The notes under the pieces: generated by a model
What the model saw: the letters and a program-made list of their open reading frames with translations, nothing else
Told to the model about the DNA's origin: nothing
Database searches by the model: none
Made by a program: the position numbers and the translations under genes
Assembly (NCBI GenBank): GCA_017518185.1
Contig: JAFWWB010000010.1
Span: 1-61,519 of the forward strand
Length of the DNA: 61,519 nucleotides
DNA from: Lachnospiraceae bacterium
GTDB taxonomy: Bacteria; Bacillota; Clostridia; Lachnospirales; Lachnospiraceae
Reading direction: 5' to 3'
Shown: piece by piece, positions 9,159-57,727 of the stretch
How the letters are laid out: every line of letters begins with the position of its first letter
Numbering within the stretch: the stretch's first letter is position 1

Positions 9159-9160
9159 AG

Positions 9161-9835
9161 ATGAAGAGTGCGAGATGTGAGGAACTGTTTGACTTAAGCC
9201 ACAGTATTGCGGCTGAGTACATTAAGAAAGCGGAATATCCCTGGGAACTGCTCTCCGGGATAGCCGGCTATATCAGGGAGCTGGGGCCCACCCTGGATCC
9301 GGAGCTCTTTGAAAAGAAGGGGGAGGATATCTGGATCGCAAAGAGCGCAAAGGTGGCGCCCACGGCCTGCCTTAACGGTCCCCTCATCATAGACGAGGAG
9401 GCGGAGATAAGGCACTGCGCCTTCGTAAGAGGCAGCGCCATAGTCGGAAAGGGCTGCGTGGTAGGCAACTCCACGGAGCTTAAGAACGTGATACTCTTCG
9501 ATAAGGTGCAGGTACCGCACTACAATTATGTGGGCGATTCCATACTTGGCTTCAAGGCCCACATGGGGGCTGGCTCCATCACCTCCAACGTAAAATCCGA
9601 CAAGACCCTTGTGGTGGTAAAGGACGGTGAGGAGAAGATAGAGACCGGGCTTAAGAAGTTTGGCGCTATGCTCGGCGATAACGTGGAAGTTGGCTGCAAC
9701 AGCGTGCTGAACCCCGGCACCGTGGTAGGCAGGGGGAGCAGCATCTATCCCACATCCTGTGTCAGGGGCGTTATACCTGCCGGGAGCATCTATAAGAAGC
9801 AGGGCGAGATAGCCTTAAGGGAGAAGGCAGATTGA
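9161..9835 (+). CDS. Left-handed beta-helix (GlmU-like) nucleotidyl/acyltransferase homologue
   Basis: A 224-residue protein with hexapeptide-repeat pattern from about residue 60 to 210 (IAKSAKVAP, GPLIIDEEAEI, GSAIVGKGC, MLGDNVEVG, GTVVGRGSSIYP), forming a left-handed beta helix. The N-terminus is a short helical region without the GlmU pyrophosphorylase GxGxR loop. It resembles the stand-alone GlmU-C-like proteins of Clostridia annotated as UDP-N-acetylglucosamine pyrophosphorylase, but an acyl or nucleotidyl substrate cannot be assigned. It starts 2 bases after topB and its stop overlaps the next start. Confidence 0.75.
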   Translation: MKSARCEELFDLSHSIAAEYIKKAEYPWELLSGIAGYIRELGPTLDPELFEKKGEDIWIAKSAKVAPTACLNGPLIIDEEAEIRHCAFVRGSAIVGKGCVVGNSTELKNVILFDKVQVPHYNYVGDSILGFKAHMGAGSITSNVKSDKTLVVVKDGEEKIETGLKKFGAMLGDNVEVGCNSVLNPGTVVGRGSSIYPTSCVRGVIPAGSIYKKQGEIALREKAD

Positions 9836-10338
9836 CCGCTGAGGAGAGAAATGAGACAAAAGTCTGTCTCTGGAGGGCACAGAGCGCACTTTCGGCACTT
9901 GTATTAAAGCTTGAGGCAGACAGGCATATAGCCACCGCTCATGCGGGGGACGCCGCGGGAAGCCTCTTCCCGGAGCTTATTGCCTATACCCTTTCCAAAG
10001 GCGGTGAGCCATCAGTGCTGGAGGAGCTCCTGCCTTTCTTTGAAGCAGGGGAAAGAACGGAGGATATAAGACAGGCCATACTTAAGCGCTGTGCCGCATT
10101 TAAGGCGGGAAAAGAGGAGGAACCGGGAGTGTTCACCCTGCTCAAACGCTTTGATGCCATGGCTCGTGAATATGACGGGGCTTTCTATTCCACCATGAAG
10201 GTGGAGGATCCGGGAGCCCTTTCGGACAGATACATTGAACTGGCGGAGGCGGCCTTCGCCCTTTTCGGGGTGAAAGGCACAGGCGGCCTTACAGGATTTC
10301 AAGGGGTATATTTTGACGGAAATGAACAGACTGGGTAA
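9832..10338 (+). CDS. Uncharacterised protein
   Basis: A 168-residue, mainly helical soluble protein that I do not recognise. It starts with TTG at 9832, overlapping the previous stop as TTGA. Its 3' end overlaps the HD-domain gene by 26 bases. No signal peptide, membrane helix or metal motif is seen. Its position between the beta-helix protein and the HD protein suggests co-translation with them but gives no function. Confidence 0.6.
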   Translation: MTAEERNETKVCLWRAQSALSALVLKLEADRHIATAHAGDAAGSLFPELIAYTLSKGGEPSVLEELLPFFEAGERTEDIRQAILKRCAAFKAGKEEEPGVFTLLKRFDAMAREYDGAFYSTMKVEDPGALSDRYIELAEAAFALFGVKGTGGLTGFQGVYFDGNEQTG

Positions 10339-10843
10339 GGAAAAGACGGATTTTTTCAGGAGCATGGTAAGGAAGACAAGGCAGGGCTCCCGCTTTGATA
10401 TGATGGATGAGTTCATCCAGCACGGGGATACCACGGTGAGGACCCACTGCCTGCATGTGGCGCAGACAGCATACTACATCGCCATGCGTTTTAACATAAA
10501 GGTGGATGAGGCATCCCTCATAAGGGGAGCGCTGCTCCACGATTATTTCCTTTACGATTGGCACGAGAAGAGCTGGGCCAACAGCATCCACGGCTATACC
10601 CATCCGGGAAAGGCCCTTAAGGAGGCGGAAAAGGATTTTGACTTAAACGACATCGAGAGGGATATGATAAAGCATCACATGTTCCCCCTGACCATCTTCC
10701 CTCCGAAGACAAAGGAAGGCTGGATACTGGTGCTGGCGGATAAGGTCTGTGCCACGGGAGAGACTATAGGTGACAGATACCGTTCGAGGCAGCGAAGCGG
10801 GCGAGATTACGGGATCGTCTCCGTGAACAGGAAAACGGCGTGA
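10313..10843 (+). CDS. HD-domain phosphohydrolase
   Basis: A 176-residue HD-superfamily metal-dependent phosphohydrolase. The conserved H (RTHCLHV), HD pair (LLHDYFLYDWH), HH (IKHHMF) and distal D (LADK) are all present, so it should be active on a nucleotide or similar phosphoester; the substrate is unknown. I chose the TTG at 10313 because AAGGGG lies 6 bases upstream; ATG at 10322 is the alternative, at 15 bases. The C-terminal tail after GDRYR is basic and looks less conserved, and the DNA there contains GCGAAGCGG, a string also found in the structured elements near 3100 and 16020. Confidence 0.8.
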   Translation: MTEMNRLGKEKTDFFRSMVRKTRQGSRFDMMDEFIQHGDTTVRTHCLHVAQTAYYIAMRFNIKVDEASLIRGALLHDYFLYDWHEKSWANSIHGYTHPGKALKEAEKDFDLNDIERDMIKHHMFPLTIFPPKTKEGWILVLADKVCATGETIGDRYRSRQRSGRDYGIVSVNRKTA

Positions 10844-12162: not shown

Positions 12163-13776
12163 ATGACCGGTGCCGAACTGATGGTAAAGAGCCTCGAGGC
12201 GGAGGACGTGAAGTATGTCTTCGGCTATCCCGGGGTTGCCATATGTCCTTTTTATGATGCGATACTGGATTCGGAGATAAAGACCGTGCTCATACGTACG
12301 GAGCAGAATGCAGCCCATTCCGCTTCGGGAATGGCCAGGATGACGGGAAAGCCCGGAGTCTGCGCCGTGACCTCGGGGCCGGGGGCCACGAACCTTATCA
12401 CGGGCATAGCTACGGCCTTTGCGGATTCCATTCCCCTGGTGTGCATAACGGGACAGGTAAATTCCGAGCTCATAGGCTCAGACGTGTTCCAGGAGGCGGA
12501 TATCACCGGCGCCGTGGAATCCTTTGTGAAGTATTCCTATCTGGTCAAGGATGCGAAGGAGCTTCCCAGGATCTTCAAGGAGGCTTTCTATATCGCGAAT
12601 TCGGGACGCAGGGGCCCTGTGCTCATCGACGTTCCGATCGACGTGCAGCAGGCCGAGGCCGGGGATTTCGAATATCCGGAAGAAGTGAAGCTCAGGACCT
12701 ACAAGCCTACGGTAAAGGGCAACGTCCTGCAGATAAAGAAGACCATAAACCAGCTTGAGAAGGCAAAGAGGCCCCTTATCTGCGTTGGCGGCGGCGTAAG
12801 CCTGTCCGGTGCACAGGAAGAGCTTAAGGCTCTTGCCGAGGAGTTCCGCATCCCTGTGGTATCCACCATGATGGGTATCAGTGTTATGCCTACCGAGCAT
12901 CCCCTTTATTACGGCATGGTGGGAAATAACGGCTTCCCCTGGGCCAACAGGGCCATGAACGAGGCCGACCTCATTATGATGGTGGGAGCCAGGGTGGCTG
13001 ACCGTGCAGTGAACCAGCCGGAGCGTGTCATGAAGGATACGGTGCTCATCCATATAGATGTGGATCCCGCCGAGATAGGTAAGAACGCCGGCGCCACCAT
13101 ACCTATAGTGGGTGACGCAAAGCATATATTAAAAGAGATAAGCGAATACGAGATGGACGGCGAGTTTGACGGCTGGATAAAGTCCCTGGACGAATACCGC
13201 CGGACCATGCCTCTTACAAGGACACCGGATCCCGCCTTTGTGGATCCCGCGGAGTTCATAAGAAGGCTTTCCCTGAAGCTGGAGGATAATGCGGTCTATG
13301 TTGCGGATGTGGGACAGAACCAGATCTGGTCCTGCAAATATCATGTGGTAAGGAACGGACGTTTTCTCACCACCGGCGGCATGGGCACCATGGGCTATTC
13401 CATTCCCGCAGCCGTAGGCGCGAAGCTTGCCTGCCCCGACAGGCAGGTGGTTGCCGTATGCGGCGACGGCTCCTTCCAGATGAGCATGATGGAGCTGGCC
13501 ACCATGAGCCAGTACGGCGTGAAGGTAAAGATAATAGTCCTTAAGAACGACTACCTTGGAATGGTGAGGCAGTATCAGCATTTTACCTATAAAGACAGGT
13601 ATTCCGTGGTGGATATAGCCGGAAACCCGGAGCTTGAGCATATAGCTGCCGCCTACGGGATGAAGTTTTTGAGCATTGAAAACATGGAGGGGCTGGATGA
13701 GAAGCTTGACGAGCTGCTTTCCAAGGATGAGAGCTGTCTCTGCCGCTGTATCATAGACCCCATGGATCTGGTATAG
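12163..13776 (+). CDS. ilvB: Acetolactate synthase, catalytic subunit
   Basis: A 537-residue ThDP-dependent acetohydroxyacid synthase large subunit, which joins two pyruvates, or pyruvate and 2-oxobutyrate, in the first common step of valine, leucine and isoleucine synthesis. The catalytic glutamate lies in RTEQNAAHSASG, and the ThDP/Mg motif is GDGSFQMSMMEL...NDYLGMVRQ near residue 430-470. TGGAGGAAAG precedes the ATG. The protein is slightly shorter than E. coli IlvB/IlvI. Two regulatory subunit genes follow. Confidence 0.95.
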   Translation: MTGAELMVKSLEAEDVKYVFGYPGVAICPFYDAILDSEIKTVLIRTEQNAAHSASGMARMTGKPGVCAVTSGPGATNLITGIATAFADSIPLVCITGQVNSELIGSDVFQEADITGAVESFVKYSYLVKDAKELPRIFKEAFYIANSGRRGPVLIDVPIDVQQAEAGDFEYPEEVKLRTYKPTVKGNVLQIKKTINQLEKAKRPLICVGGGVSLSGAQEELKALAEEFRIPVVSTMMGISVMPTEHPLYYGMVGNNGFPWANRAMNEADLIMMVGARVADRAVNQPERVMKDTVLIHIDVDPAEIGKNAGATIPIVGDAKHILKEISEYEMDGEFDGWIKSLDEYRRTMPLTRTPDPAFVDPAEFIRRLSLKLEDNAVYVADVGQNQIWSCKYHVVRNGRFLTTGGMGTMGYSIPAAVGAKLACPDRQVVAVCGDGSFQMSMMELATMSQYGVKVKIIVLKNDYLGMVRQYQHFTYKDRYSVVDIAGNPELEHIAAAYGMKFLSIENMEGLDEKLDELLSKDESCLCRCIIDPMDLV

Positions 13777-13782
13777 GAGGGC

Positions 13783-14268
13783 GTGATGAGAAGGATCTTT
13801 TCGGTACTTGTGGAAAACCGTTCCGGTGTGCTCTCGAAGGTGGCAGGGCTCTTCTCAAGAAGGAGCTTCAACATCGATTCCCTGGCAGTGGGCGAGACGG
13901 AGGATAACGCTGTCTCACTCATGACCATAATGAGCTCCGGCACTGAGCAGACACTGGAGCAGATAGAGAAGCAGCTGAACAAGAAGCTGGATGTCATCAA
14001 GGTCAAGACCTTTGATGAGAGCCGGGCCGTGAGCCGCGAGCTCATGCTTGTGAAGGTCAAGTGTACCAAGGGGAACCGCCGCGAGATCATGGAGATCTGC
14101 GAGGTTATGAAGGCGGAGATAGTGGATATGTCCGAGCATCTGATGATACTGCAGATCTGTGATACTCCAGACAAGATAAAGCTGATGCTGTCGCTGCTGT
14201 CACAGATATCGATAGTGGAAGTGGCACGCACCGGCACACTTGCACTGCAGAAATGCATGGATGATTGA
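13783..14268 (+). CDS. ilvN: Acetolactate synthase, regulatory subunit 1
   Basis: A 161-residue small subunit that activates IlvB and confers valine feedback control. It has the N-terminal ACT domain (SVLVENRSGVLSKVAGLFSRRSFNIDSL) and the C-terminal AHAS-specific domain. It starts 6 bases after ilvB. A second, clearly different paralogue follows, so the organism has two regulatory partners for one adjacent catalytic subunit. Confidence 0.93.
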   Translation: MMRRIFSVLVENRSGVLSKVAGLFSRRSFNIDSLAVGETEDNAVSLMTIMSSGTEQTLEQIEKQLNKKLDVIKVKTFDESRAVSRELMLVKVKCTKGNRREIMEICEVMKAEIVDMSEHLMILQICDTPDKIKLMLSLLSQISIVEVARTGTLALQKCMDD

Positions 14269-47007: not shown

Positions 47008-47043
47008 CAATTATGATAGCTTGCGCTGTTTGTGTCAAGTTCT

Positions 47044-47072
47044 TTGACCATATGCTTCTTCTATGATATAAT
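47044..47072 (+). promoter_or_regulatory. Promoter giving a near-leaderless transcript
   Basis: TTGACC at 47044-47049, 17 bases, TATAAT at 47067-47072. Transcription should begin at about 47079, two or three bases before the ATG, and no ribosome site is visible. Confidence 0.75.
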
Positions 47073-47081
47073 ACGAAAGTT

Positions 47082-48314
47082 ATGGCTGTCGAAGAAAATG
47101 TGATAGAACTTAAGGAGCTGAGCAAGGTCTACCGCCTGTACGAGAGGAATTCGGACAGGCTCAAGGAGGCCCTGCATCTGGGGCGGAAACAGAGGCATAC
47201 GGATCACCGCGCCTTGGATAAGGTCAGCTTTTCCATAAAGAGCGGGGAGACCGTGGGCATCATAGGCACCAACGGTTCCGGCAAGTCCACGGTGCTGAAG
47301 CTCATCACCGGGGTGCTGACCCCTACCTCCGGGACGGTGACGGTTAACGGCCGCATCTCCGCCCTGCTTGAGCTGGGAGCCGGCTTCAACTATGAGTACA
47401 CCGGCATCGAAAACATATATCTGAACGGCACCATGACTGGATTTTCGAAGCAGGAGATAGACGAGAGGCTGGAGGATATCCTGAAATTCGCGGATATCGG
47501 GGATTTCGTGAACCAGCCTGTTAAGACCTATTCCTCCGGCATGTTCGTGCGCCTTGCCTTTGCCCTGGCCATAAACATCGATCCGGAGATACTCATAGTG
47601 GATGAGGCGCTTTCGGTGGGAGACGTGTTCTTCCAGGCCAAGTGCTACCACAAGTTCGAGGAGTTCAAGGAGCAGGGCAAGACCATACTCTTTGTCAGCC
47701 ATGATATGTCCAGCATTGCCAAGTACTGCGACAGGGTCATACTCCTGGACAAGGGAAGGATGCTGGGAGAAGGCGCTCCCAGGAAGATGCTGGATATCTA
47801 CAAGCAGGTGCTGGTGGGCCAGTATGACGGGGACCCCACCGCCGTGGACGAGGCCTTTGAAAAGGGAAGCACTCTGGAATACGGCTCCCGGAAGGCCCAT
47901 ATAGACGAGATATTTGTTACGGATGAAAAGGGTGAACGCATACAGGCCGTGATGAAGGGCAGCCGCTGTACCGTATACATGCGGGTCTCGATCCTTCAGG
48001 ATCTGCAGGCGCCCATCTTTGCCCTGTCCTTCAAGGATGTGAGGGGAACGGAGATCTGCGGCACCAATACCATGTTCGAGAAGACCTTTCTTGATCCCTG
48101 CAGGGCCGGGGAGAAGAAGGAGATAAGCTTTTCCCAGCAGATCGACCTGCAGGGAGGTGAATACCTGCTGTCCTTCGGGGTGACGGGTTACGAAGGCGAG
48201 GATTTCACGGTCTACCACAGGCTCTACGACGCCCTGAAGCTGACGGTGGTGTCCGAGAAGAACACGGTGGGCTTTTACGATATGAATTCCGCAGTGGAGG
48301 TCAGGGACATTTGA
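47082..48314 (+). CDS. Wzt-like polysaccharide ABC transporter ATPase
   Basis: A 410-residue ABC ATPase of the O-antigen/teichoic acid export type: Walker A GTNGSGKST (near residue 62), family-typical LLELGAGFNYEYTGIENIYLNG, signature YSSGMFVRL, Walker B ILIVDEALSVGD. Residues from about 270 form a C-terminal beta-sandwich domain (KDVRGTEICGTNT...) like the Wzt cargo-binding domain that recognises the capped glycan end. The matching membrane permease (Wzm/TagG) is not in the window. It opens an operon of glycan genes and overlaps the next gene by four bases. Confidence 0.88.
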   Translation: MAVEENVIELKELSKVYRLYERNSDRLKEALHLGRKQRHTDHRALDKVSFSIKSGETVGIIGTNGSGKSTVLKLITGVLTPTSGTVTVNGRISALLELGAGFNYEYTGIENIYLNGTMTGFSKQEIDERLEDILKFADIGDFVNQPVKTYSSGMFVRLAFALAINIDPEILIVDEALSVGDVFFQAKCYHKFEEFKEQGKTILFVSHDMSSIAKYCDRVILLDKGRMLGEGAPRKMLDIYKQVLVGQYDGDPTAVDEAFEKGSTLEYGSRKAHIDEIFVTDEKGERIQAVMKGSRCTVYMRVSILQDLQAPIFALSFKDVRGTEICGTNTMFEKTFLDPCRAGEKKEISFSQQIDLQGGEYLLSFGVTGYEGEDFTVYHRLYDALKLTVVSEKNTVGFYDMNSAVEVRDI

Positions 48315-50260
48315 AAGAGATGATCGGAGAGGTTGAACTGGACTTAAGCTTCTATCCCGGCGAGGATCTGTACTGCGACGGCGAGTCGGAGGATGTCCTT
48401 CTGGATATAGTGAAGAACGAACCTGTCTCCGCCTTTTCGGAGATCGCGGCAGAGAAAAAGAGCTGGCCCCTGCTCTATCATCTGTCGGATATAAGGGAAA
48501 ACATCGTAAGCTGGATGGACTTAAAGCCCGGGGCAAAGGTGCTTGAGATAGGCGCCGGCTGCGGAGCCGTCACAGGGGCTTTTCTGAATAAGGGTTATAA
48601 ACTTACCTGTGTGGAGCTTTCGAAAAAGCGGAGCAGCATCAATGCATACAGGCACCGTGCCGATTCCGGTTTTAAGGTGATCGTCGGAAATTTCGAGGAT
48701 ATCGAGGGCTCGCTTGACAGGGATTTTGACTATATCTTCCTGACGGGAGTGCTGGAATACGCGAAGAGCTACATCCATGCTGAAGATCCCTTCAGGGAGT
48801 TCGTACGGGTGGCAAAGAGCCATCTTAAGGAGGACGGGAGCCTCGTAATAGCAATAGAGAACCGTCTGGGTCTTAAGTATTTCGCGGGAGCAAGGGAGGA
48901 TCATCTCGGCAGTTATTTTTCCGGGATAGAGGATTATCCGGAAGGCGGTCCGGCAAAGACCTTTTCAAAGCCGGTGCTGGAGGGACTGCTTTCGGATTTT
49001 AAGGAACTGCATTTTTACTATCCCTATCCCGACTACAAGTTCCCGCTCTGCATATATTCGGATGAGAGGCTGCCGGAGCCGGGAGAGCTTTCCGTAAATC
49101 TCCTGAACCTGGACAGGAGCCGCCTGCTTCTCTTTAACGAGAGGAATGCGTATGATGCCCTTATAAAGGACGGGCTCTATCCCCTGTTTTCCAACTCCTT
49201 CCTCATAGTTGCGGGAAAGGCACAGGATGCAGTGTATTGCAAGTTCTCCAATGACAGGGATCCGAAGTACGCCATACGCACGGAAATACTCAGGGACGGC
49301 AGGGTGCGTAAATCCGCCCTTAAGCCTGAGGGCAGGGAACATCTGAAAGCCATAGTAAAGGCCTGCAGAGGGCTTAAGGAAAAATATGAGGGCAGCGGCC
49401 TGGAGGTTGTCTGCTTTGATGAAGAGGGTGACGGCATAGTGTCTCCCCTTGTAAGCGGTGTGAGCCTGGAGAGGCTTCTTGACGAGGCGGCCCTTTGCGG
49501 GAATGAGGCCCGGATAAAGGAGCTGCTGGCCCGTTACAGGGGATTCGCGGAATACAGGCCGGACTATGCGCTCACGGATCTGGACATGAGCTTTTCAAAT
49601 GTGCTCATAGACGGAGACAGCTGGAAGCTCATCGACCCCGAGTGGGTGGAATATGAGGCCGGCGGCGCTACGAAGGCCATGGCAAGGGCGCTGTTCATAT
49701 ATCTCAGCGCGGATGAGGCCAGGGGGAAGCTGACCGGACTCTTTACGCAGTGCCTGGGAACGGAGCCTGCGGAGGAGGATGTCTTCCGGAAGAAGATCGC
49801 GGGAGAGCGTGTGCCTCTCGGAAGGATGAATGCCATACTGGCAAATGAGGTAACTGACATAAAGGGTGAGATGGGAAGGCTGGATGCGGAAAAGCGACTG
49901 TCAGAGCCCAGGATATATTTTGACAGGGGCAGCGGTTTTTCCGAGGCAGACAGCATAAGACCGGAGATAAGACGCATCGCTGAAAAGAAATATGAGCTTA
50001 AGTTTGCTGCGGAAGCCGGGATAAAGACGCTGCGTTTCGATCCCTGCATGTGCGTCTGCGCCCTGGGGGTGGAGGAGGCTTCCTTTAACGGGAAGAAGCT
50101 GAAGCTTAAGACCAACGGCCGCAGCATAGGCAGAGGCTATGTTTTTAACGGGGAGGATCCCAACATTCTCTTCAGTCTTAAGGGAGCGACCGGAGAGCTT
50201 AAGTTTATATACAGCTTAAGCGTACTGCCGCCGGAGCTGGGGGATGCCCTATGTCAATAA
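48311..50260 (+). CDS. WbdD-like methyltransferase-kinase fusion
   Basis: A 649-residue protein starting at TTG 48311. Residues about 70-240 are a class I SAM methyltransferase (VLEIGAGCGAVTGAF). Residues about 300-510 form a kinase-like domain. Its catalytic loop is DLDMSFSN with D425 and N430, the metal-binding D442 is in LIDPEW, and a candidate ATP lysine lies in VRKSALKPEG. A C-terminal beta domain (from ~530) follows. The domain order matches WbdD, which phosphorylates and methylates the non-reducing end of E. coli O9a chains to stop growth. Its neighbour is a Wzt-like ATPase, as expected for cap-dependent export. Substrate unknown. Confidence 0.78.
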   Translation: MKEMIGEVELDLSFYPGEDLYCDGESEDVLLDIVKNEPVSAFSEIAAEKKSWPLLYHLSDIRENIVSWMDLKPGAKVLEIGAGCGAVTGAFLNKGYKLTCVELSKKRSSINAYRHRADSGFKVIVGNFEDIEGSLDRDFDYIFLTGVLEYAKSYIHAEDPFREFVRVAKSHLKEDGSLVIAIENRLGLKYFAGAREDHLGSYFSGIEDYPEGGPAKTFSKPVLEGLLSDFKELHFYYPYPDYKFPLCIYSDERLPEPGELSVNLLNLDRSRLLLFNERNAYDALIKDGLYPLFSNSFLIVAGKAQDAVYCKFSNDRDPKYAIRTEILRDGRVRKSALKPEGREHLKAIVKACRGLKEKYEGSGLEVVCFDEEGDGIVSPLVSGVSLERLLDEAALCGNEARIKELLARYRGFAEYRPDYALTDLDMSFSNVLIDGDSWKLIDPEWVEYEAGGATKAMARALFIYLSADEARGKLTGLFTQCLGTEPAEEDVFRKKIAGERVPLGRMNAILANEVTDIKGEMGRLDAEKRLSEPRIYFDRGSGFSEADSIRPEIRRIAEKKYELKFAAEAGIKTLRFDPCMCVCALGVEEASFNGKKLKLKTNGRSIGRGYVFNGEDPNILFSLKGATGELKFIYSLSVLPPELGDALCQ

Positions 50261-52155
50261 AGAGCGCCATACAGCAGAAGCTCCACGAACGTCAGCTGAA
50301 GATCTATGAGGCGGAGCTTGCGGCACAGAAGCGCCTGTATGAGAAGAGACTGAAGCCCGGTGACAACAGGGTTGAAGCGGGCATGAGCATAAAGCAGGGA
50401 GCCGTGGAGTTCAGGAGCTTCGACTGCAAAAGACCCGCGGAGGGAAGGTATCTCATACTGGCGGCAGCAGGCGGCTATATCGATGAAGCCGCAGGCTCTG
50501 AGACTGAAAGATATTTTTCGGAGCACCCGGAGCTTATGTGGTTCTATCCGGATGAAGATAAGCTTTCGGCAGAAGGAAAGCCGGAGAAGCCCTGGTATAA
50601 GCCGGACTGCAGCCCGGAGACGCTGATGTCCTCCGTGTACACAGGACATATACTCTGCGTGAGGAAGGAAGCTTACGAGGCGGCCGGCAGCAGCGCAGAA
50701 ACTGCAGCGGGGCTGGTATATGCACTGGCACTGCATTCGGAACCCGGGCATTACAGGGACATACTTTATCACAGCCCGGAGGAGAGCCCCTATAAGGACA
50801 GAGCTGCACTTGCGGCTTTTCTGGAAGCGAAGGGGATCTCCGCGGAGATAAGAGAGGATAAGGACGGATATCTGTATCCCGTCTTTGCGCTTAAGGACAG
50901 GCCTGAGATAAGCATCATCATCCCTTCGAAGGATCATCCGGAAGTGCTGGGACGCTGTGTGGCTTCCATAAGGAAACTGAGCAGCTATGACAATATAAAG
51001 ATTTATGTGACGGATAACGGGAGCTCCCCGGAAAATAAGGCGGAGTACGAGCACCTTGCTTCGGAATACGGCTTTGACTATCACCATGAAGAGCGGCCTT
51101 TTAATTTTTCCGCCATCTGCAATGCGGCGGCAAGGGCGTCTTCGGGAGAGTATCTGCTCTTTCTGAACGACGATACCGAGACCGTGACTCCTGACTGGCT
51201 TGAGCTCATGCTGGGACAGGCTATGCAGGAGGGCGTGGGAGCAGTGGGAGCAAAGCTCTACTATCCCGGCGGAAAGCTCATACAGCATGCGGGCATCACA
51301 AATATGTACGAGGGTCCGGTGCACAAGCTCTTCGGCATGAGCGATGAAGAAGATGTCGACAGGGGCAGGAACCGCGGCATACGCGATATGGCGGGAGTCA
51401 CGGCGGCCTGCATGCTAGTCTCAAGGAAGGTCTTTGAGGAAGCGGGCGGTTTCCCCGAGGAGCTCAAGGTGGCCTATAACGATGTGGACCTCTGCTTTAC
51501 TCTGCTGGAGCATGGGCTGCGCTGCGTTGTGAGAAATGACGTGGTGCTGATACATTACGAATCCCTTTCAAGAGGGGACGACAATATTGACGATGCCAAG
51601 CGCGACAGGCTGGCAGCGGAGCGGGGGACCTTATATGAGAGACATCCCTCTTTCTATGAGCGGGATCCTTATTACCATCCGCTGCTTACAGGGGCTTCGG
51701 AGCGTTTTGAGCCGGCGGCGCCGCTGGAGAACAAGAACCTGCCTGTCATCGGAGAGATAAAGAAGGTTTCCGTGACGCTCAGGGAAGAGGATATAAATGA
51801 GACCCTGATAATAAAGCGTGACCGTGTGGGAAAGTGTTATTATGCGGACACGGACGGAAGGCGTCAGGGTTATATAATAGACATACATGCCCATGTCCGG
51901 GGGCTGGACAGCGCGGATTATAACTACCGCATGTACGCAAAGACGGAGGACGGGAGCGTTTACGAGCTTCCGGCTGTGCGGCGTTACAGGCCCGATGTGG
52001 AAAAGACCTATTACGAGCAGCTGCACGTGGAGCTTTCGGGCTTTGCGGTAAAGCTGAAAGAAGGAGTGCTGCCGCCCGGCAGAACGGAGATCTGGATGGA
52101 AGCAAAGAGCGCCATTTCAAGACAGCGGCTGGTCAACCGGCTGGAAGCGGTATAA
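50251..52155 (+). CDS. GT2 glycosyltransferase with relic first domain
   Basis: A 634-residue protein with one intact GT2 domain from about residue 220 (ISIIIPSKDHPEVLGRC, TDNGSSPENK, FLNDDTE as the DxD equivalent, KVAYNDVDLC). The first ~215 residues contain WFYPDEDKL and PWYKPDCSPETLMSS, which line up with the second half of the first GT2 domain of the 53674 protein. They look like a relic that lost its nucleotide-binding half. A C-terminal beta domain is shared with the next protein. The start overlaps the kinase gene by 10 bases. Confidence 0.82.
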   Translation: MSIKSAIQQKLHERQLKIYEAELAAQKRLYEKRLKPGDNRVEAGMSIKQGAVEFRSFDCKRPAEGRYLILAAAGGYIDEAAGSETERYFSEHPELMWFYPDEDKLSAEGKPEKPWYKPDCSPETLMSSVYTGHILCVRKEAYEAAGSSAETAAGLVYALALHSEPGHYRDILYHSPEESPYKDRAALAAFLEAKGISAEIREDKDGYLYPVFALKDRPEISIIIPSKDHPEVLGRCVASIRKLSSYDNIKIYVTDNGSSPENKAEYEHLASEYGFDYHHEERPFNFSAICNAAARASSGEYLLFLNDDTETVTPDWLELMLGQAMQEGVGAVGAKLYYPGGKLIQHAGITNMYEGPVHKLFGMSDEEDVDRGRNRGIRDMAGVTAACMLVSRKVFEEAGGFPEELKVAYNDVDLCFTLLEHGLRCVVRNDVVLIHYESLSRGDDNIDDAKRDRLAAERGTLYERHPSFYERDPYYHPLLTGASERFEPAAPLENKNLPVIGEIKKVSVTLREEDINETLIIKRDRVGKCYYADTDGRRQGYIIDIHAHVRGLDSADYNYRMYAKTEDGSVYELPAVRRYRPDVEKTYYEQLHVELSGFAVKLKEGVLPPGRTEIWMEAKSAISRQRLVNRLEAV

Positions 52156-52157
52156 AA

Positions 52158-53681
52158 ATGTCAAGGAAATCAGACTATTACAAGCGCCTGGCGCGGTATG
52201 AGGATCCTGTTGCGGCTTATCTTGCGGATAACCCCGGAGATGAGGCCGGGGCGGAGCATATCCGTGAGCTGATGGCCCGGGCAGGCGAGCTTCCCGGTAA
52301 GACAGTGGAGCGGGAGCCGGAGGAATACGACGATTCCAAGCTGTCCGTTTTAATACCCAGTAAGGATCATCCCGGGCTTCTGTCACAGTGCCTTCAGAGT
52401 TTTGTGAAATATACGGACTACGACAAACTTGAATTCATCGTGGTGGATAACGGCAGCAGTCCGGAAAACAGGGAAAAGTACGAGGAGCTTAAGAAGAGCA
52501 TCCCCTTTACCTATATCTATGAGGCCGGTGAGTTCAACTTCTCCCGTATGTGCAACAGCGCCGTGAAAGCCTCTATCGGAAGGCTGCTGCTCTTCCTGAA
52601 TGACGATATAGAGCTGAGGCCGCTGCCGGGCAGGGAGGACATCTCAAAGTGGCTTAAGATAATGGCGGCGGAGGCAATAAGGCCGGAAACGGGAGCAGTG
52701 GGAGCGCTGCTCTATTACCCCCCCGATGAAAGCGGAGAGTACCGCATACAGCATGCGGGCGTGAGCAATATAGGCCTAGGCCCCGTGCATAAGCATAACG
52801 GTAGCCTGAGACGGCCTTCGGTGCCCAAAGAAGTCATCGCGGTCACGGCGGCCTGCCTGCTGGTGGAAAGGAAGAAGTTCAGGGAAGCCGGCGGCTTTTG
52901 CGAAGAGCTTGAGGTGGCCTACAATGATGTGGACCTCTGCTTCACCTTATACGAAAAGGGCTACAGGAATATAGTCAGGCCCGAGGCTGAGCTCATCCAT
53001 CACGAGTCCACCAGCCGGGGCTATGAGGAGTCGGCGGAAAAGCGCCGGAGACAGCTGGAGGAGTGGGTAAAGCTCTATAAGCGGCATCCGGAGATGTACG
53101 GCCGGGATCCCTATCTGGATCCTGCCATACCGATGTGGAAGCTGACTTCTGATATGAAGCCGGAATTTACGGCCGAGAGCGATGCGCCCGGGATCTCCTC
53201 CGAGGTATCGGAACTCCAGGTGCTGAAGCCTTCGCAAAGCGGAAGGCTGCTTCGGAAACTGGGTATAGATATCGCGCCGCTTTATCATATAGATCATGCC
53301 TTCAGCCGGATCTATATGGATAAGGACGGGGAACCCCGCAGACAGTGGCGCATAGAGGGCTGGGCCGCGCCGAGGAAGAAAGCGCTATGGAACTACACCA
53401 GATATCTGCTGCTCCGGGATAAGTGGGGGACCAGCGTAAGGATAAAACTTTTTGAGACCTACAGGCCGGATACGAAGGCGGTGCTCACGGAGCAGGAGGG
53501 ATATGCGCTTTCAGGCTTTGCGGCCAGGATAGATGAAGAAAAAGTTACCGAAGGAAAATATGAAGCGGGCTTTGCCTTTGATCCACCTTCGGACGGATAT
53601 GAATACATTTGCTTCACGGGCGTGATGATAGAGTTTAAGTACGGATCGGAGCCCGTGATCACGGAGGCGGAAAATGCCTGA
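52158..53681 (+). CDS. GT2 glycosyltransferase with accessory beta domain
   Basis: A 507-residue single-domain GT2 enzyme (LSVLIPSKDHPGLLSQC, VDNGSSPENR, FLNDDIE, VAYNDVDLC) with a C-terminal ~150-residue beta domain containing TYRPDTKA and LSGFAARI, similar to RYRPDVEK and LSGFAVKL in the previous protein. Its catalytic acidic residues are present. Sugar specificity cannot be read; the rhamnosyltransferase-like pattern is only a resemblance. Confidence 0.85.
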   Translation: MSRKSDYYKRLARYEDPVAAYLADNPGDEAGAEHIRELMARAGELPGKTVEREPEEYDDSKLSVLIPSKDHPGLLSQCLQSFVKYTDYDKLEFIVVDNGSSPENREKYEELKKSIPFTYIYEAGEFNFSRMCNSAVKASIGRLLLFLNDDIELRPLPGREDISKWLKIMAAEAIRPETGAVGALLYYPPDESGEYRIQHAGVSNIGLGPVHKHNGSLRRPSVPKEVIAVTAACLLVERKKFREAGGFCEELEVAYNDVDLCFTLYEKGYRNIVRPEAELIHHESTSRGYEESAEKRRRQLEEWVKLYKRHPEMYGRDPYLDPAIPMWKLTSDMKPEFTAESDAPGISSEVSELQVLKPSQSGRLLRKLGIDIAPLYHIDHAFSRIYMDKDGEPRRQWRIEGWAAPRKKALWNYTRYLLLRDKWGTSVRIKLFETYRPDTKAVLTEQEGYALSGFAARIDEEKVTEGKYEAGFAFDPPSDGYEYICFTGVMIEFKYGSEPVITEAENA

Positions 53682-55662
53682 GAACAGGGAAGAGCTTGAA
53701 AAAGAAATAAAGGATCTGAGGTATCAGAATCTGCAGCTTGCCACGAAGCTCTCGGAGGCAAAGGCCCTGGCGGATGAGAAGCAGCGCCAGCTGGACAGGA
53801 TAAAGAACTCGCTGCCCTGGAGGATGTCAAAGCCTCTCAGGGTCACCATGCATTTTTTCCTGAGGCAGGGAAGACGCCTTAAGAACCTGGGAGGCCCCAG
53901 GGGAATAGCCAGGAAGCTTAAGAGCAAGAGCATAGAGAAGAGGGCGAGGATACAGCACGGCACTGCCAGCTTCCCGGATGAGGCAGAGGCAAAGAGGCAG
54001 CGGGAGACGGTATTTCCGAAGGATATAAAGTTCTCCATACTTGTACCCCTTTATAATACGCCGGAGGGATTTTTATCGGACACCATAAATTCCGTTAAGA
54101 ACCAGACCTACGGGAACTGGGAGCTCTGTCTTGCGGACGGTTCCGATGATGCCCATGCTTACGTAGGAAAGCTCTGTCTTAAGGAGGCGGAGGCTGACAG
54201 CAGGATAAAGTATAAGAAGCTTGAAAAGAACGAGGGCATTTCCGGAAATACCAATGAATGCCTGAAGATGGCAAGTGGGGAATTTATCGGACTCTATGAT
54301 CATGACGATATACTCCATCCTTCCGCACTGTATTACTACATGCAGGCCATCTGCGAAAAAGATGCGGACTATATCTACTGCGATGAGACCACCTTCCACG
54401 GAAACAGCGTGGACAACATGATAACCCTGCACTTCAAGCCGGATTACTCACCGGACAATCTGCGGGCAAATAATTACATCTGTCATTTTTCGGTATTCAA
54501 ACGGGAACTGCTGGAGGGCACGGAGCTTTTCAGGACCCGTTTTGACGGCAGCCAGGATCACGACATGATACTGCGTCTTACCTCGGCTGCGAAAAATATC
54601 GTACACATACCGAAGATACTTTATTACTGGCGTTCGCATAAGGGCAGTGTTGCTGCAGATATAAACGCCAAGGAATACGCCATCGAAGCGGCTAAGGGCG
54701 CAGTAGCGGAGCACTTAAGAAGCTGCGGCTATGATAATTTTTCCATAGAGTCCACCAGGGCCTTTGAGACCATCTTCCGCATCCACTATCCGCTGAAGGA
54801 TTCCGCAAAGGTATCGATCCTTATACCCAATAAGGATTCGAAGGAGGTACTCAAGCGCTGCATCGATTCCATACTTGAGAAGACTACCTGGCAGGAATAT
54901 GAGATAATAGTCATTGAGAACAATTCCCAGAGCCCGGAGATCTTCGCTTATTACGATGAGCTGAAGAGCCATCCCCGTATAAGTGTTGTCACCTATGAAG
55001 GGGAATTCAATTATTCTTCTGTGAACAACTTCGGCGCGAAGCATGCAACGGGTGAGCATCTGCTGCTCCTCAATAACGATACCGAGGTCATCACCCTGAA
55101 CTGGATCGAGGAGCTTCTGATGTACTCCGGCAGGGATGATGTGGGAGCCGTGGGCGCGAAGCTCTATTATCCCGACAAGACGATCCAGCATGCGGGAATA
55201 GTGCTGGGACTCGGAGCACACCGTACCGCGGGCCACGGACATTACAAAGTGAATTATGAAAACCTGGGCTACATGGGAAGGCTCTGCTATGCGCAGAATG
55301 TTTCCGCTGTGACCGGAGCCTGCCTTATGGTGAAGAAAAGCTTATATGATGAGGTGGGAGGCCTGGATGAGGGCTTCAGGGTTGCGCTCAATGACGTGGA
55401 CTTCTGCCTGAAGCTCAGGGAGAAGGGATATCTCAACATATGGACTCCCTTCTGCGAGCTCTATCATTATGAATCCGCATCAAGGGGCAGCGATCTTTCC
55501 GGCCCGGGAGCGGAGCGTTACGAAAAGGAATGCGAGGTGTTCCGCAAAAAGTGGAAGAAAGTGCTTGATGCGGGAGATCCTTATTACAATGTAAACTTTT
55601 CGCTGGACAGGAGCGATTACAGTCTTAAGATAAATACGGAGGAGGAAGCTGATGGGCGATAA
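53674..55662 (+). CDS. Tandem-domain GT2 glycosyltransferase
   Basis: A 662-residue protein: an N-terminal coiled coil and basic patch (residues 2-90, ending NSLPWRMSKPLR), GT2 domain 1 (FSILVPLYNTPEGF, GLYDHDDILHP) and GT2 domain 2 (VSILIPNKDSKEVLKRC, LLNNDTEVI, NDVDFCLKL). Both domains keep DxD-like motifs, so one chain could add two sugars alternately. It overlaps the genes on either side by 8 and 11 bases, showing tight co-translation. Confidence 0.88.
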   Translation: MPENREELEKEIKDLRYQNLQLATKLSEAKALADEKQRQLDRIKNSLPWRMSKPLRVTMHFFLRQGRRLKNLGGPRGIARKLKSKSIEKRARIQHGTASFPDEAEAKRQRETVFPKDIKFSILVPLYNTPEGFLSDTINSVKNQTYGNWELCLADGSDDAHAYVGKLCLKEAEADSRIKYKKLEKNEGISGNTNECLKMASGEFIGLYDHDDILHPSALYYYMQAICEKDADYIYCDETTFHGNSVDNMITLHFKPDYSPDNLRANNYICHFSVFKRELLEGTELFRTRFDGSQDHDMILRLTSAAKNIVHIPKILYYWRSHKGSVAADINAKEYAIEAAKGAVAEHLRSCGYDNFSIESTRAFETIFRIHYPLKDSAKVSILIPNKDSKEVLKRCIDSILEKTTWQEYEIIVIENNSQSPEIFAYYDELKSHPRISVVTYEGEFNYSSVNNFGAKHATGEHLLLLNNDTEVITLNWIEELLMYSGRDDVGAVGAKLYYPDKTIQHAGIVLGLGAHRTAGHGHYKVNYENLGYMGRLCYAQNVSAVTGACLMVKKSLYDEVGGLDEGFRVALNDVDFCLKLREKGYLNIWTPFCELYHYESASRGSDLSGPGAERYEKECEVFRKKWKKVLDAGDPYYNVNFSLDRSDYSLKINTEEEADGR

Positions 55663-57727
55663 ACTTCTGGACATGATGGAATCCATGGCGGGCCGCAGGA
55701 GCGACTACACGCTGGAGGAGATAGAAAAGGCGGAAAAGCTGAAGAAGAAGCATGGCGGCAGCCTTACGGAGAACCTGATAAAGGTCACGGGAAGAAGGCC
55801 TTCGCCTGTGCTGGGTTCAAGCTCCCTGGCGGGGCTTGAGCTTCCGGACATGGATATATCCTCCGTTATGAGCGTGCCTTCGGGAGCGGAGCAGCTTCAG
55901 GAGAATTCAAAGCTCCTGGACGAGCAGCTTAAAGAGCTGAACGAGAACCTGGCAAAGGATTTCGGAGTGAAGCCCGCGGAGGAGGTGATACCTCCGAAGG
56001 ATCCCATGGAAGCCTTCTCCGGACTTGAGGAGGAAATTGCAAAGAGCGTATACGGACAGGAGGAGATGATCCACAAGCTGAACATCGCCTTCAAGCGTCC
56101 CTTCCTCATGCCTCCCGAGGAGGGAAAGGCAAGGAACTGCATATATCTGAGCGGACCGGAATATACGGGAAGGCACAGCGCCCTTAAGGAGCTGGTGCGT
56201 CTTCTGAATGAGAGGGGCGCTCTTAAGAGCGGCAGCATCACCACGGTGAACCTTGGGCTTTATACGGATTCCTCACAGGAGAAGATCTTCCTGCAGGATA
56301 TGTATTCCGCACTGGCAGGTGAGAATGAGGTGATCCTTTTTGAAAACTATCAGGATGCACATCCCTCCTTCCTGACCCATGTTGCGGATCTTGTGATAAA
56401 AGGGAGCTTCAGGCTCTCTGAAAGATATGTCCAACAAAACGGACAGCTTGTGGGCATACAGAATTCCCTTGCCACATCCATGGTGGGCGAGGTGAAGGCT
56501 TCGGGAAAGTATCTGGTGTTCATCAGCGGAAAGGGCCTCGGGAAAGCTGCGGATGTCTTCGGCGCGGCTTTCGTAAATGCCCTGCTGGGCGATGCCTGCG
56601 AGGCAAAGCAGCCTGATGCCGAAGTGATAAAACGTGTCGCGGAAAGAGAAACAGCTGAGCTTGTAAAGACAGCGAAGGACAGGCTTTCCTTTGAGATAAA
56701 GGCGGGAGAGGAGTTTACCGCACATGCCGCATCAAAGGGGGACAGAGGCGGGATAAAGGCGGTGCTCGGATATTTCGACAGCGTGACCCAGGCGCTGGTT
56801 CAGGCAAAGCTTGAAGGGGACTATCCTTCCGGCATGGAGCTTGAGCTCGTAGCGGACGGTAATAAGCTTACGGGTAAGTGCGAAAAGGGCGATATCGACT
56901 TGAGCGCCCTCATGCCGGGAGCATACCAGGGCGAGATCGAAGAGGTAAAGGCCGAGATGGAGAAGATCGTAGGCCTGAAGGAGATCAAGGAGTATATCCT
57001 GAGCCTGGAGGAATACTACCGCGTGCAGAAGCGCAGGGAGGAAGAGGGACTGAAGACCGGAAGCGTCAGCAAGCATATGATCTTCACGGGAAGCCCCGGA
57101 ACCGGCAAGACTACCATCGCGCGTATCATAAGCAGATATTTAAAGGCCATAGGAGTCCTGAGCGGCGGACAGCTTGTGGAGGTCTCCCGCGCGGATCTGG
57201 TGGGAAAGTATGTAGGCCATACCGCGCCCCTGACCCAGAAGGTCATAAGCTCGGCCCTGGGCGGCGTTCTCTTCATAGATGAGGCCTACAGCCTCTACCG
57301 GGGACGCGACGATTCCTACGGGCTTGAAGCCATCGACACACTGGTGAAGGGCATAGAGGATAACAGGGATGACCTGATAGTGATACTGGCAGGCTACTCC
57401 AATGAGATGGAGGAGTTCATGACCGCCAACTCCGGCTTGAAGAGCCGTTTCCCGAATGTAATAAACTTCCCGGATTATACAGGGGAAGAGCTTTTGGAGA
57501 TATCGAAGAGCATAGCCGCATCGAAGGGCTATATAATAGAAGAAGAGGCTTACGGGCCGCTGACCGCTTTCTTCGATAAGACCCAGGCGGAGGATGCCGC
57601 CGAGGCCGGCAACGGACGTCTGGCCAGGAACCTGGTGGAGGAGGCGATACTGAACCAGTCGCGCCGCCTTGCCGCCGAACCCGACGCTCCGCTGGATACG
57701 CTGAAGGAAGGGGATTTTGAACTGTAA
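55652..57727 (+). CDS. Two-module AAA+ ATPase (degenerate Clp-like plus CbbX/SpoVK-like)
   Basis: A 691-residue protein. After a helical N-terminus, residues about 125-330 resemble the ClpB/ClpC second ATPase domain (VYGQEEMIHKLNIAFKR), but the Walker A is GPEYTGRHSALKE instead of GPTGVGKT, so nucleotide use is doubtful. Residues about 440-680 are an intact CbbX/SpoVK-type AAA+ with GSPGTGKTT, ADLVGKYVGHTA, VLFIDEAYSLYRG and sensor 1 ILAGY. It is translationally coupled to the glycosyltransferase upstream. A remodelling role for the glycan complex is inferred from position only. Confidence 0.82.
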   Translation: MGDKLLDMMESMAGRRSDYTLEEIEKAEKLKKKHGGSLTENLIKVTGRRPSPVLGSSSLAGLELPDMDISSVMSVPSGAEQLQENSKLLDEQLKELNENLAKDFGVKPAEEVIPPKDPMEAFSGLEEEIAKSVYGQEEMIHKLNIAFKRPFLMPPEEGKARNCIYLSGPEYTGRHSALKELVRLLNERGALKSGSITTVNLGLYTDSSQEKIFLQDMYSALAGENEVILFENYQDAHPSFLTHVADLVIKGSFRLSERYVQQNGQLVGIQNSLATSMVGEVKASGKYLVFISGKGLGKAADVFGAAFVNALLGDACEAKQPDAEVIKRVAERETAELVKTAKDRLSFEIKAGEEFTAHAASKGDRGGIKAVLGYFDSVTQALVQAKLEGDYPSGMELELVADGNKLTGKCEKGDIDLSALMPGAYQGEIEEVKAEMEKIVGLKEIKEYILSLEEYYRVQKRREEEGLKTGSVSKHMIFTGSPGTGKTTIARIISRYLKAIGVLSGGQLVEVSRADLVGKYVGHTAPLTQKVISSALGGVLFIDEAYSLYRGRDDSYGLEAIDTLVKGIEDNRDDLIVILAGYSNEMEEFMTANSGLKSRFPNVINFPDYTGEELLEISKSIAASKGYIIEEEAYGPLTAFFDKTQAEDAAEAGNGRLARNLVEEAILNQSRRLAAEPDAPLDTLKEGDFEL

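Follow-up and report, generated by a model that had tools for sequence, protein, structure and literature searches.

The window, a stretch of 61,519 nucleotides from a Butyrivibrio relative of the family Lachnospiraceae, contains five open reading frames that follow one another on the forward strand at positions 47082-55662. An ORF scan and Pfam searches identify them as wzt (47082..48314, 410 aa), a methyltransferase-kinase gene whose product is referred to below as the putative terminator (48311..50260, 649 aa), and the genes of three GT2 family proteins, GTa (50251..52155), GTb (52158..53681) and GTc (53674..55662), which bears out the position between Wzt and three GT2 proteins that the first-pass annotation had given to the methyltransferase-kinase. 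The same annotation described these genes as all overlapping; this holds for most neighbours, but GTa and GTb are spaced by 2 bases, and the terminator, which has 649 aa when counted from a TTG start codon, may alternatively begin with an ATG at 48320, leaving a gap of 5 bases to wzt. A promoter-like site (TTGACC-17-TATAAT with TG ahead of the second hexamer; 47044..47072, forward strand) was found upstream of wzt by a consensus scan and by reading of the sequence. It has 11 of 12 consensus matches and is separated from the wzt ATG by 9 bases, in which no ribosome-binding site is obvious; it is not proof of a promoter, because the scanned region contains 12 such sites, where shuffled sequence gives 7.5 on average (sd 2.6).

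The product of wzt carries an ABC_tran domain (Pfam, E 1.5e-24) and, at residues 265-401, a Wzt_C domain (E 1.1e-38); no other protein of the source genome matched Wzt_C. Its best match in the PDB was 8dku/7k2t (E 3.9e-80, residues 12-374); 7K2T is described as a WzmWzt template (PMC9445017). On these matches the protein is an ABC transporter ATPase with a predicted C-terminal carbohydrate-binding, cap-reading domain, in agreement with the cargo-binding domain proposed for it earlier. The C-terminal domain of the Aquifex aeolicus WzmWzt, the source of this best solved match, is likewise of the cap-reading type, and its ligand is given as a 3-O-methyl sugar (PMC9445017).

No Wzm is encoded beside Wzt in the window. 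The gene order rmlB-rmlA-rmlC-wzm-wzt-terminator-GTs, seen in relatives, is broken in the source genome: rmlB, rmlA, rmlC and wzm are located on one contig (C46), where wzm sits behind rmlC with no adjoining ATPase, and the genes from wzt onwards on another (C78). A Wzm profile of the genus, run against the permeases of this genome, gave 429 bits for the Wzm of C46 versus 86 bits for that of C87. The break that parted wzm from wzt might mean that the pathway is dead or has been re-purposed in the source genome. This is very unlikely, since all five reading frames are open, the terminator motifs are intact, the promoter-like site lies just upstream of wzt, and a second genome with a broken operon (G030), split between wzt and the terminator, retains both halves.

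The terminator comprises a methyltransferase (residues about 1-274; Methyltransf_12 in Pfam, E 7.7e-9), a kinase (288-515) and a small C-terminal domain (530-649). None of the 12 Pfam families listed for the window terminator is a kinase family, nor is any of 25 listed of the 37 families matching the 33 members of alignment A1, and none was seen in ten selected proteins. Profiles of the kinase region matched protein kinases in the PDB, weakly (E 2e-4 and above; best E 0.0018 in one search and 2.3e-4 in another), with D425 and N430, and in some alignments also D442, falling on the catalytic loop. Residues T324, K334, D425, N430, D442, E444 and W445 are invariant across 74 kinase segments, the window's included, at a mean column identity of 26%; D425, N430 and D442 had been singled out as kinase residues from the window alone. 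Alignment A4 holds these 74 of 75 segments; L078, which matched only in part, was taken out manually, and a filter on coverage excluded two others (L146 and L147) from the list of segments. Alignment A1 has 33 rows (L044, L071, L072, L073, L074, L077 and L078 being left out), with six fused proteins trimmed to their first 545 residues, and alignment A5 has 25 of 26 rows, L057 being kept out because of unread bases. The assignment of a kinase fold to the central part of the terminator is based on these profiles and on the invariant catalytic residues.

The C-terminal domain is perhaps carbohydrate-binding. It matched the corresponding domain of a Pseudomonas homologue weakly in hhalign (probability 3%, E 0.015) and had no match in the PDB better than E 0.59. 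No coiled coil was scored in the window terminator (best 0.49) by an ad hoc heuristic with an imperfect background, which at 0.9 marks 2/98 Wzt, 0/35 RmlB, 0/36 RmlA, 0/79 Wzm and 0/40 RmlC proteins, and at 0.80 marks 33/98 Wzt. Two relatives (L049 and L068) have a coil score of 0.93, located within the kinase and not after it.

Glycos_transf_2 domains were matched in GTa (residues 221-396), in GTb and, in two stretches, in GTc (Pfam). Six relatives (L053, L054, L055, L059, L061 and L062) have GTa and the terminator joined in one protein. GTc begins with a predicted short coiled coil (residues about 20-47, score 0.95 by the same ad hoc heuristic), followed by two GT2 modules that carry DxDD and NxD motifs, and is 36% identical over 655 columns to the C-terminal GT2 half of the Pseudomonas protein.

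This Pseudomonas protein and a Citrobacter protein were found by tblastn of the terminator (E 3e-34 and 6e-31, respectively). Each comes after an ABC permease and an ATPase, and both of these ATPases are 36% identical to the window Wzt; the Citrobacter cluster had no match in E. coli genomes. The Pseudomonas protein is 32% identical to the terminator, its kinase region matched the kinase profile in hhalign (E 7.8e-13), and it has Y28, Y66, G91, G93, E112 and Y158 at the same numbers as the SAM residues published for the methyltransferase of ORF6 of Klebsiella pneumoniae O7 (PMC11231755). Their counterparts in the window, by alignment to the Pseudomonas protein, are Y21, Y56, G81, G83, E102 and Y150; D425 aligns with Pseudomonas D443, and the catalytic aspartate of ORF6-O7 is given as D441 (PMC11231755). 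ORF6-O7 is described as a terminator-polymerase that places a methylphosphate onto the terminal rhamnose, with a kinase quite different from that of WbdD; chains are reported not to be exported in its kinase mutant, and the orthologues named for it belong to alpha- and gammaproteobacteria and cyanobacteria (PMC11231755). The closest characterised relative of the terminator is ORF6-O7, as placed by published residue numbers and architecture via the Pseudomonas homologue. According to the published description, the two systems share a methyltransferase followed by a kinase that sequence searches miss and by a small domain, counterparts to seven key residues, dual GT2 modules with DxDD and NxD motifs, and a rhamnose context. 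They differ in that ORF6-O7 combines the methyltransferase, the kinase, a CBM-like domain, a coiled coil and two GT2 modules in a single chain, whereas in the window the GT2 pair belongs to a separate protein, GTc, with the short coil located there and none scored in the terminator, and in that the host of the window system is a member of Lachnospiraceae.

The kinship with WbdD assumed at first was not supported: the measured relatives are the Pseudomonas protein with the ORF6-O7 residues and the Citrobacter protein. WbdD is absent from one 14-row match list for the window system and from the best 60 of 155, 60 of 121, 60 of 386 and 60 of 69 matches listed, and filing of the terminator in the WbdD family was rejected. 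In its working, E. coli O9a WbdD/Wzt as described (PMC3482155) is similar, with a cap made by kinase and methyltransferase, a Wzt C-domain and ABC export. It is different in that WbdD acts on mannose and carries at its C-terminus a coiled-coil region, then a membrane helix and a polymerase-recruiting region, while no coil was scored in the window terminator by the ad hoc heuristic. The Lcin_0519 family of Legionella, called only remotely related to WbdD, consists, like the terminator, of kinase-methyltransferases with typical kinase catalytic residues, and has Wzt and Wzm among its neighbours; compared by description only, it often has a coiled coil, and the groups named for it are all Pseudomonadota orders (PMC9758233).

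A search of 35 genomes of the same genus found a terminator match in 34 and a Wzt_C match in 33, and Wzt directly adjoins the terminator in 32 (31 by script plus G009), so that the pairing of the ATPase with the terminator is conserved. In 20 genomes of the genus, rmlA, rmlB, rmlC and wzm-wzt-terminator lie within one stretch. Two genomes (G004 and G028) appeared to have no kinase in the first phmmer pass, but the profile finds a separate kinase-GT fusion in both. Outside the genus, no full-length Wzt accompanies the kinase within the examined stretch at 5 of 38 loci; no Wzt was found in the stretch around L135, L137, L146 and L170, and L142 has methyltransferase and kinase with an ATPase of only 242 aa, too short for a C-domain. 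One Butyrivibrio locus was counted twice (as L044 and L154) in the terminator motif survey. Loci lacking a full-length Wzt would suit a terminator that decorates repeat units or the linker instead of the chain end, with something else as the ligand of Wzt_C, and a role in modifying other secreted glycans, for example Nod factors, has been suggested for Lani_1194-type kinase-methyltransferases (PMC9758233). We consider this quite unlikely, since the terminator is conserved beside a C-domain-bearing Wzt and resembles the O7 enzyme, in which a kinase mutation is reported to block export (PMC11231755).

Another explanation could be that the methyltransferase alone forms the cap by O-methylating the terminal sugar, as in O8 or in WsaE of Geobacillus stearothermophilus. 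The kinase part would then have some other role, if any: it might be inactive, serve the structure of the protein or place phosphate within the chain. Capping by the methyltransferase alone is consistent with the better conservation of this part (mean column identity 65% versus 47% for the kinase), and WsaE, which methylates rhamnose and has two GT domains, is taken as the cap former of the S-layer glycan of that organism (PMC2943079). Nevertheless, it is unlikely: the catalytic residues of the kinase are invariant, the product described for the O7 enzyme is a methylphosphate (PMC11231755), and the methyltransferase is the part that is lost: in four relatives (L077, L138, L141 and L153) the motif of the kinase is retained, while the examined stretch shows no intact methyltransferase of the family. 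The Geobacillus system, compared by description only, is also Gram-positive, with rml genes, Wzm/Wzt, a methyl cap for which a reader domain in Wzt is predicted, and tight gene overlap (PMC2943079). Its cap is 2-O-methyl rhamnose, and a kinase is not mentioned in the description. WsaE joins methyltransferase and GT modules in one chain, as six relatives of the window terminator do; its two rhamnosyltransferase modules are part of the methyltransferase chain, whereas in the window the methyltransferase and the GT2 modules are on separate proteins and the single chain of the relatives is formed with GTa. The earlier suggestion that a glycan of this kind was undescribed in Gram-positive bacteria was thus too wide, as the Geobacillus cap and reader had been reported (PMC2943079). 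A literature search on WbdD-like capped glycans in Lachnospiraceae, Butyrivibrio and Gram-positive bacteria, covering titles and the openings of abstracts, found no account of the present system there.

Co-variation of protein distances between the Wzt C-domain and the terminator is mixed overall. The Wzt C-domain co-varies with the methyltransferase (partial r 0.545, 0/1000 permutations, with the Wzt N-domain, Wzm and RmlC as covariates), while the Wzt N-domain does not to a comparable degree (partial r 0.07, 236/1000 permutations). A firm claim of co-evolution between the Wzt C-domain and the kinase was rejected, as it fails within the genus (-0.061, no co-variation) and with GTc as covariate (0.117, 141/1000 permutations). 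GTc co-varies with both methyltransferase (0.464) and kinase (0.551), and Wzm does so in the main set (0.196, 20/1000, and 0.229, 13/1000, respectively).

The five genes probably represent most of an ABC-transporter-dependent pathway for an end-capped, rhamnose-containing glycan. The O9a-style logic recognised by the first-pass annotation, a terminator that phosphorylates and methylates together with an ATPase whose C-domain reads the cap, is supported by the invariant catalytic residues and the conserved pairing, as far as sequence comparison can indicate; at this level, neither of the two refuting outcomes named with that annotation, a missing kinase fold or a pairing absent from relatives, came about. 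Synthesis of a lipid-linked, rhamnose-containing chain would take place in the cytoplasm, where GTc would act as the dual GT2 polymerase and GTa and GTb would supply other linkages. The terminator would phosphorylate the sugar at the non-reducing end, probably a rhamnose modified at its 3-OH, the site used in K. pneumoniae O7, and would then methylate the end phosphate, so that growth stops and chain length may be controlled. The Wzt C-domain would bind the capped end, and Wzm, supplied from the separate C46 locus that also holds rmlA, rmlB and rmlC, would export the chain together with Wzt; only sealed chains would leave the cell. Attachment by an LCP ligase was rejected, PF03816 having no match in the source genome.

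What seems to be new is that this system is a trait of a Lachnospiraceae genus, that its terminator has no coiled coil of its own, and that it has relatives with the kinase and no intact methyltransferase. A more speculative possibility, offered tentatively, is that these Clostridia use a modular capped-chain export with the kinase as its fixed core, in which the methyltransferase may be lost, giving phosphate-only caps, and the kinase, methyltransferase and GT modules separate and join without constraint. The ruler for length would have left the terminator and would now sit at the N-terminus of the dual-GT2 polymerase, so that a contact of terminator and polymerase in trans would set the chain length. 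Lachnospiraceae, as Gram-positive-type bacteria, are not known to have LPS. If the proposed pathway is correct, members of a major family of the gut and rumen would produce surface glycans with capped ends under the quality-control scheme known for O-antigens, and a surface polymer shared across a genus would become open to testing. The family would also provide an outgroup for the ways in which terminators, polymerases and rulers combine, and natural pairs, in which a Wzt of one kind has a neighbour with or without the methyltransferase, for asking what the Wzt C-domain reads.

The contig C78, which is 61,519 bases long and is one whole contig in a genome of 3.33 Mb and 92 contigs, carries a run of five genes on the + strand (47082-55662) encoding a Wzt ATPase (47082-48314), a methyltransferase-kinase (the terminator, 48311-50260) and three glycosyltransferases, GTa (50251-52155), GTb (52158-53681) and GTc (53674-55662). 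According to Pfam, the ATPase contains a Wzt_C domain and the glycosyltransferases belong to GT2, with two GT2 stretches in GTc; the best PDB match of the ATPase (8dku/7k2t) extends across residues 12-374. These genes had been described in the first-pass annotation as all overlapping, which is true of most frames but not of GTa and GTb, separated by 2 bases. The last of them, GTc, is overlapped by a gene of a SpoVK/CbbX-like AAA protein (55652-57727), and, since a homologue lies 3' of GTc in four relatives (L053, L054, L055 and L062), this protein may be part of the glycan pathway. A small ORF at the contig end (61049-61366) presumably resembles a YafQ/RelE-type toxin, judged by eye.

In the terminator and its relatives, Pfam matched the methyltransferase but no kinase family. 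A profile of the middle region of 33 relatives, compared with PDB sequences, had named kinases among the best 60 of 121 matches (best E 0.0018), and for a profile of 74 kinase segments (mean column identity 26%) the best 60 of 386 matches included serine/threonine kinases and tyrosine kinases, from E 2.3e-4 upwards. SalKC and ribonuclease L, both of which we take to contain kinase-like domains, were also among the matches listed. In these alignments, the DxxxxN motif of the family coincides with the catalytic-loop Asp and Asn of kinases, and T324, K334, D425, N430, D442, E444 and W445 (window numbering) are unchanged in all 74 segments. The earlier proposal of D425, N430 and D442 as kinase residues is supported by their invariance, the first two being predicted to lie on the catalytic loop. 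A kinase match was present in 78 of the 80 loci surveyed, with D, N, D, E and W at the expected places in 75; the other three (L078, L146 and L147) aligned only partially. The evidence for a kinase is therefore good, coming from profiles and residues rather than structure.

The first-pass annotation had compared the terminator with WbdD of Escherichia coli O9a, and its kinase-methyltransferase capping logic does fit; the closest measured relatives, however, are a Pseudomonas protein with residues published for ORF6 of Klebsiella pneumoniae O7 and a Citrobacter protein. ORF6 is described as a methyltransferase and a kinase missed by sequence searches, with a CBM-like domain, then a coiled coil and a pair of GT2 rhamnosyltransferase modules; it adds methylphosphate to the terminal rhamnose at its 3-OH, and its D441A form allows chains to be made but not exported (PMC11231755, 2024). 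A tblastn search of plasmids with the window terminator gave 29 records, two of them well ahead: a 1457-aa protein of Pseudomonas asturiensis, encoded 3' of an ABC permease and ATPase, and a 649-aa protein of Citrobacter braakii, within a gene cluster made up of four rfb/rff genes, a transposase, a permease, an ATPase, the terminator and three glycosyltransferases. Because Y28, Y66, G91, G93, E112 and Y158 of the Pseudomonas protein fall exactly at the published ORF6 numbers, it was taken as a putative ORF6 orthologue. Over 463 columns the window terminator shares 32% identity with it, and the counterparts of these six methyltransferase residues are, with few exceptions, conserved across 38 aligned proteins. 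The kinase profile matched the Pseudomonas and Citrobacter kinases (E 7.8e-13 and 8.4e-9), and both ATPases are 36% identical to the window Wzt. Glu in place of the second Asp in Citrobacter, and Arg (Citrobacter) or His (Pseudomonas) at the K334 position, count against a strict kinase reading.

GTc is 36% identical over 655 columns to the GT2 half of the Pseudomonas protein, with DxDD and NxD motifs common to both; whereas ORF6 has kinase, methyltransferase, coil and GT2 modules in one chain, the GT2 pair of the window is a separate protein. The coiled coil of O-antigen terminators sets chain length, according to the same study (PMC11231755). By an ad hoc and crude score, the window terminator is at background level (0.49), and a coil-like stretch is found at the start of GTc (0.95), which scores at least 0.90 in 15 of 30 GTc relatives, against 2/98 Wzt and 0/190 RmlA, RmlB, RmlC and Wzm proteins. 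In several other genera such a stretch lies C-terminal to the kinase (L138, L140, L143, L151, L152, L169 and others), as in WbdD and unlike the window terminator. This difference suggests that the chain-length ruler may have moved from the terminator to GTc.

The modules are also lost or fused differently. Loci L077, L138, L141 and L153 retain an intact kinase motif, while the methyltransferase profile of the family gave either no match there or one to a C-terminal fragment lacking the SAM motif; L138 carries an RgpF-type rhamnan synthesis domain (E 2.6e-17) joined to its kinase. Terminator and GTa form a single protein in six same-genus relatives, and L073 and L074 have a kinase-glycosyltransferase fusion beside a methyltransferase that is a protein of its own.

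Of the 35 genomes of the genus, the window's own included, 34 gave a terminator match and 33 a Wzt_C match (each in 36 of all 60 genomes searched); the terminator was not found in G024, a same-genus genome that is 77% complete. The ATPase-terminator pairing is kept as proposed, with Wzt directly 5' of the methyltransferase in 32 of these 35 genomes (a script counted 31 among 33 fetched genomes, and G009 adds one across a contig end), the exceptions being G030 (Wzt on a different contig), G012 (contig edge) and G024. Twenty same-genus genomes have rmlA, rmlB, rmlC and wzm-wzt-terminator within one fetched stretch; in the others the contig or stretch ends earlier or some gene was not seen. The order rmlB-rmlA-rmlC-wzm-wzt-terminator-GTs also occurs in four named Butyrivibrio records (L040, L041, L042, L044). 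The kinase profile matches 62/295 genomes of the order and 8/398 of the phylum, own included. Outside the genus, the full-length Wzt profile exceeded 300 bits in 33 of 38 fetched kinase-bearing loci; Wzt was not found in the fetched stretches of L135, L137, L146 and L170, and L142 is an exception to the cap-plus-reader pairing, since the ATPase near its methyltransferase, kinase and Wzm has 242 aa and cannot accommodate the C-domain. For L172 and L173 the fetched stretches include a Wzt that has the C-domain, whereas neither the kinase nor the methyltransferase of this family was found in them, and a different capping enzyme may operate.

Distance co-variation was computed over 39 loci, window included, as partial r with Wzt N-domain, Wzm and RmlC as covariates and 1000 permutations. 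The Wzt C-domain correlated with the methyltransferase (0.545) and kinase (0.442; 0/1000 each), the N-domain with neither (0.07 and 0.046), and Wzm weakly (0.196, 20/1000; 0.229, 13/1000). The C-domain values hold with GTa as a covariate (34 loci; 0.572 and 0.496); with GTc (28 loci) they are 0.292 (6/1000) and 0.117 (141/1000), and GTc itself correlates with both (0.464 and 0.551). Within the genus (24 loci) the C-domain values are 0.368 (1/1000) and -0.061, and RmlC-methyltransferase (0.361) and Wzm-kinase (0.449) are as strong as the former. Thus, C-domain distances follow those of the terminator and GTc, and a specific cap-reader link to the methyltransferase is suggested.

In the window's genome, wzm was not found beside wzt. 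Another contig, C46 (241 kb), carries rmlB, rmlA, rmlC and wzm without an ATPase, internally, about 16 kb from the contig end, with an acyltransferase frame immediately 3' of wzm. Its Wzm scored 429 bits against the genus Wzm profile, versus 86 bits for the Wzm of a pair on C87; other permease matches of this genome gave no match to the profile. That second Wzm-Wzt pair (L009 7781-9917) includes a 423-aa Wzt without a Wzt_C match at the search threshold. In G030 the break falls between wzt and the terminator, and wzt lies on the contig that carries wzm and the rml genes. Since the two genomes are broken at different places, the locus has been cut at two points within the genus with both halves retained, unless either assembly is faulty. 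Divergent promoter-like sites (47010-47092) separate a GGDEF-like gene from wzt; the site ending 9 bases 5' of the wzt ATG would yield a nearly leaderless message. In L007, two proteins with similar C-terminal parts (7368-10580 and 12555-13805), which by eye we take to be lysozyme-like, are interleaved with rmlB and rmlA, and both G030 and G009 have frames resembling the second at the corresponding position.

Five PF02397 initiating-transferase candidates and one Wzy_C protein were above cut-off in the window's genome. A LytR_cpsA_psr (LCP) ligase was not found in this 99.8% complete genome; across the genus, 10 of 35 genomes lack one, including several that are close to complete.

Precedents exist for capped export, for kinase-methyltransferase terminators and for a methyl cap in a Gram-positive organism. 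The open-licence literature searched yielded neither this terminator type for Clostridia nor a coil-less form with lineage-specific methyltransferase loss; relative to that literature, the new points are the occurrence of such a terminator throughout a clostridial genus, the absence of its own coil and the loss of the methyltransferase in some lineages.
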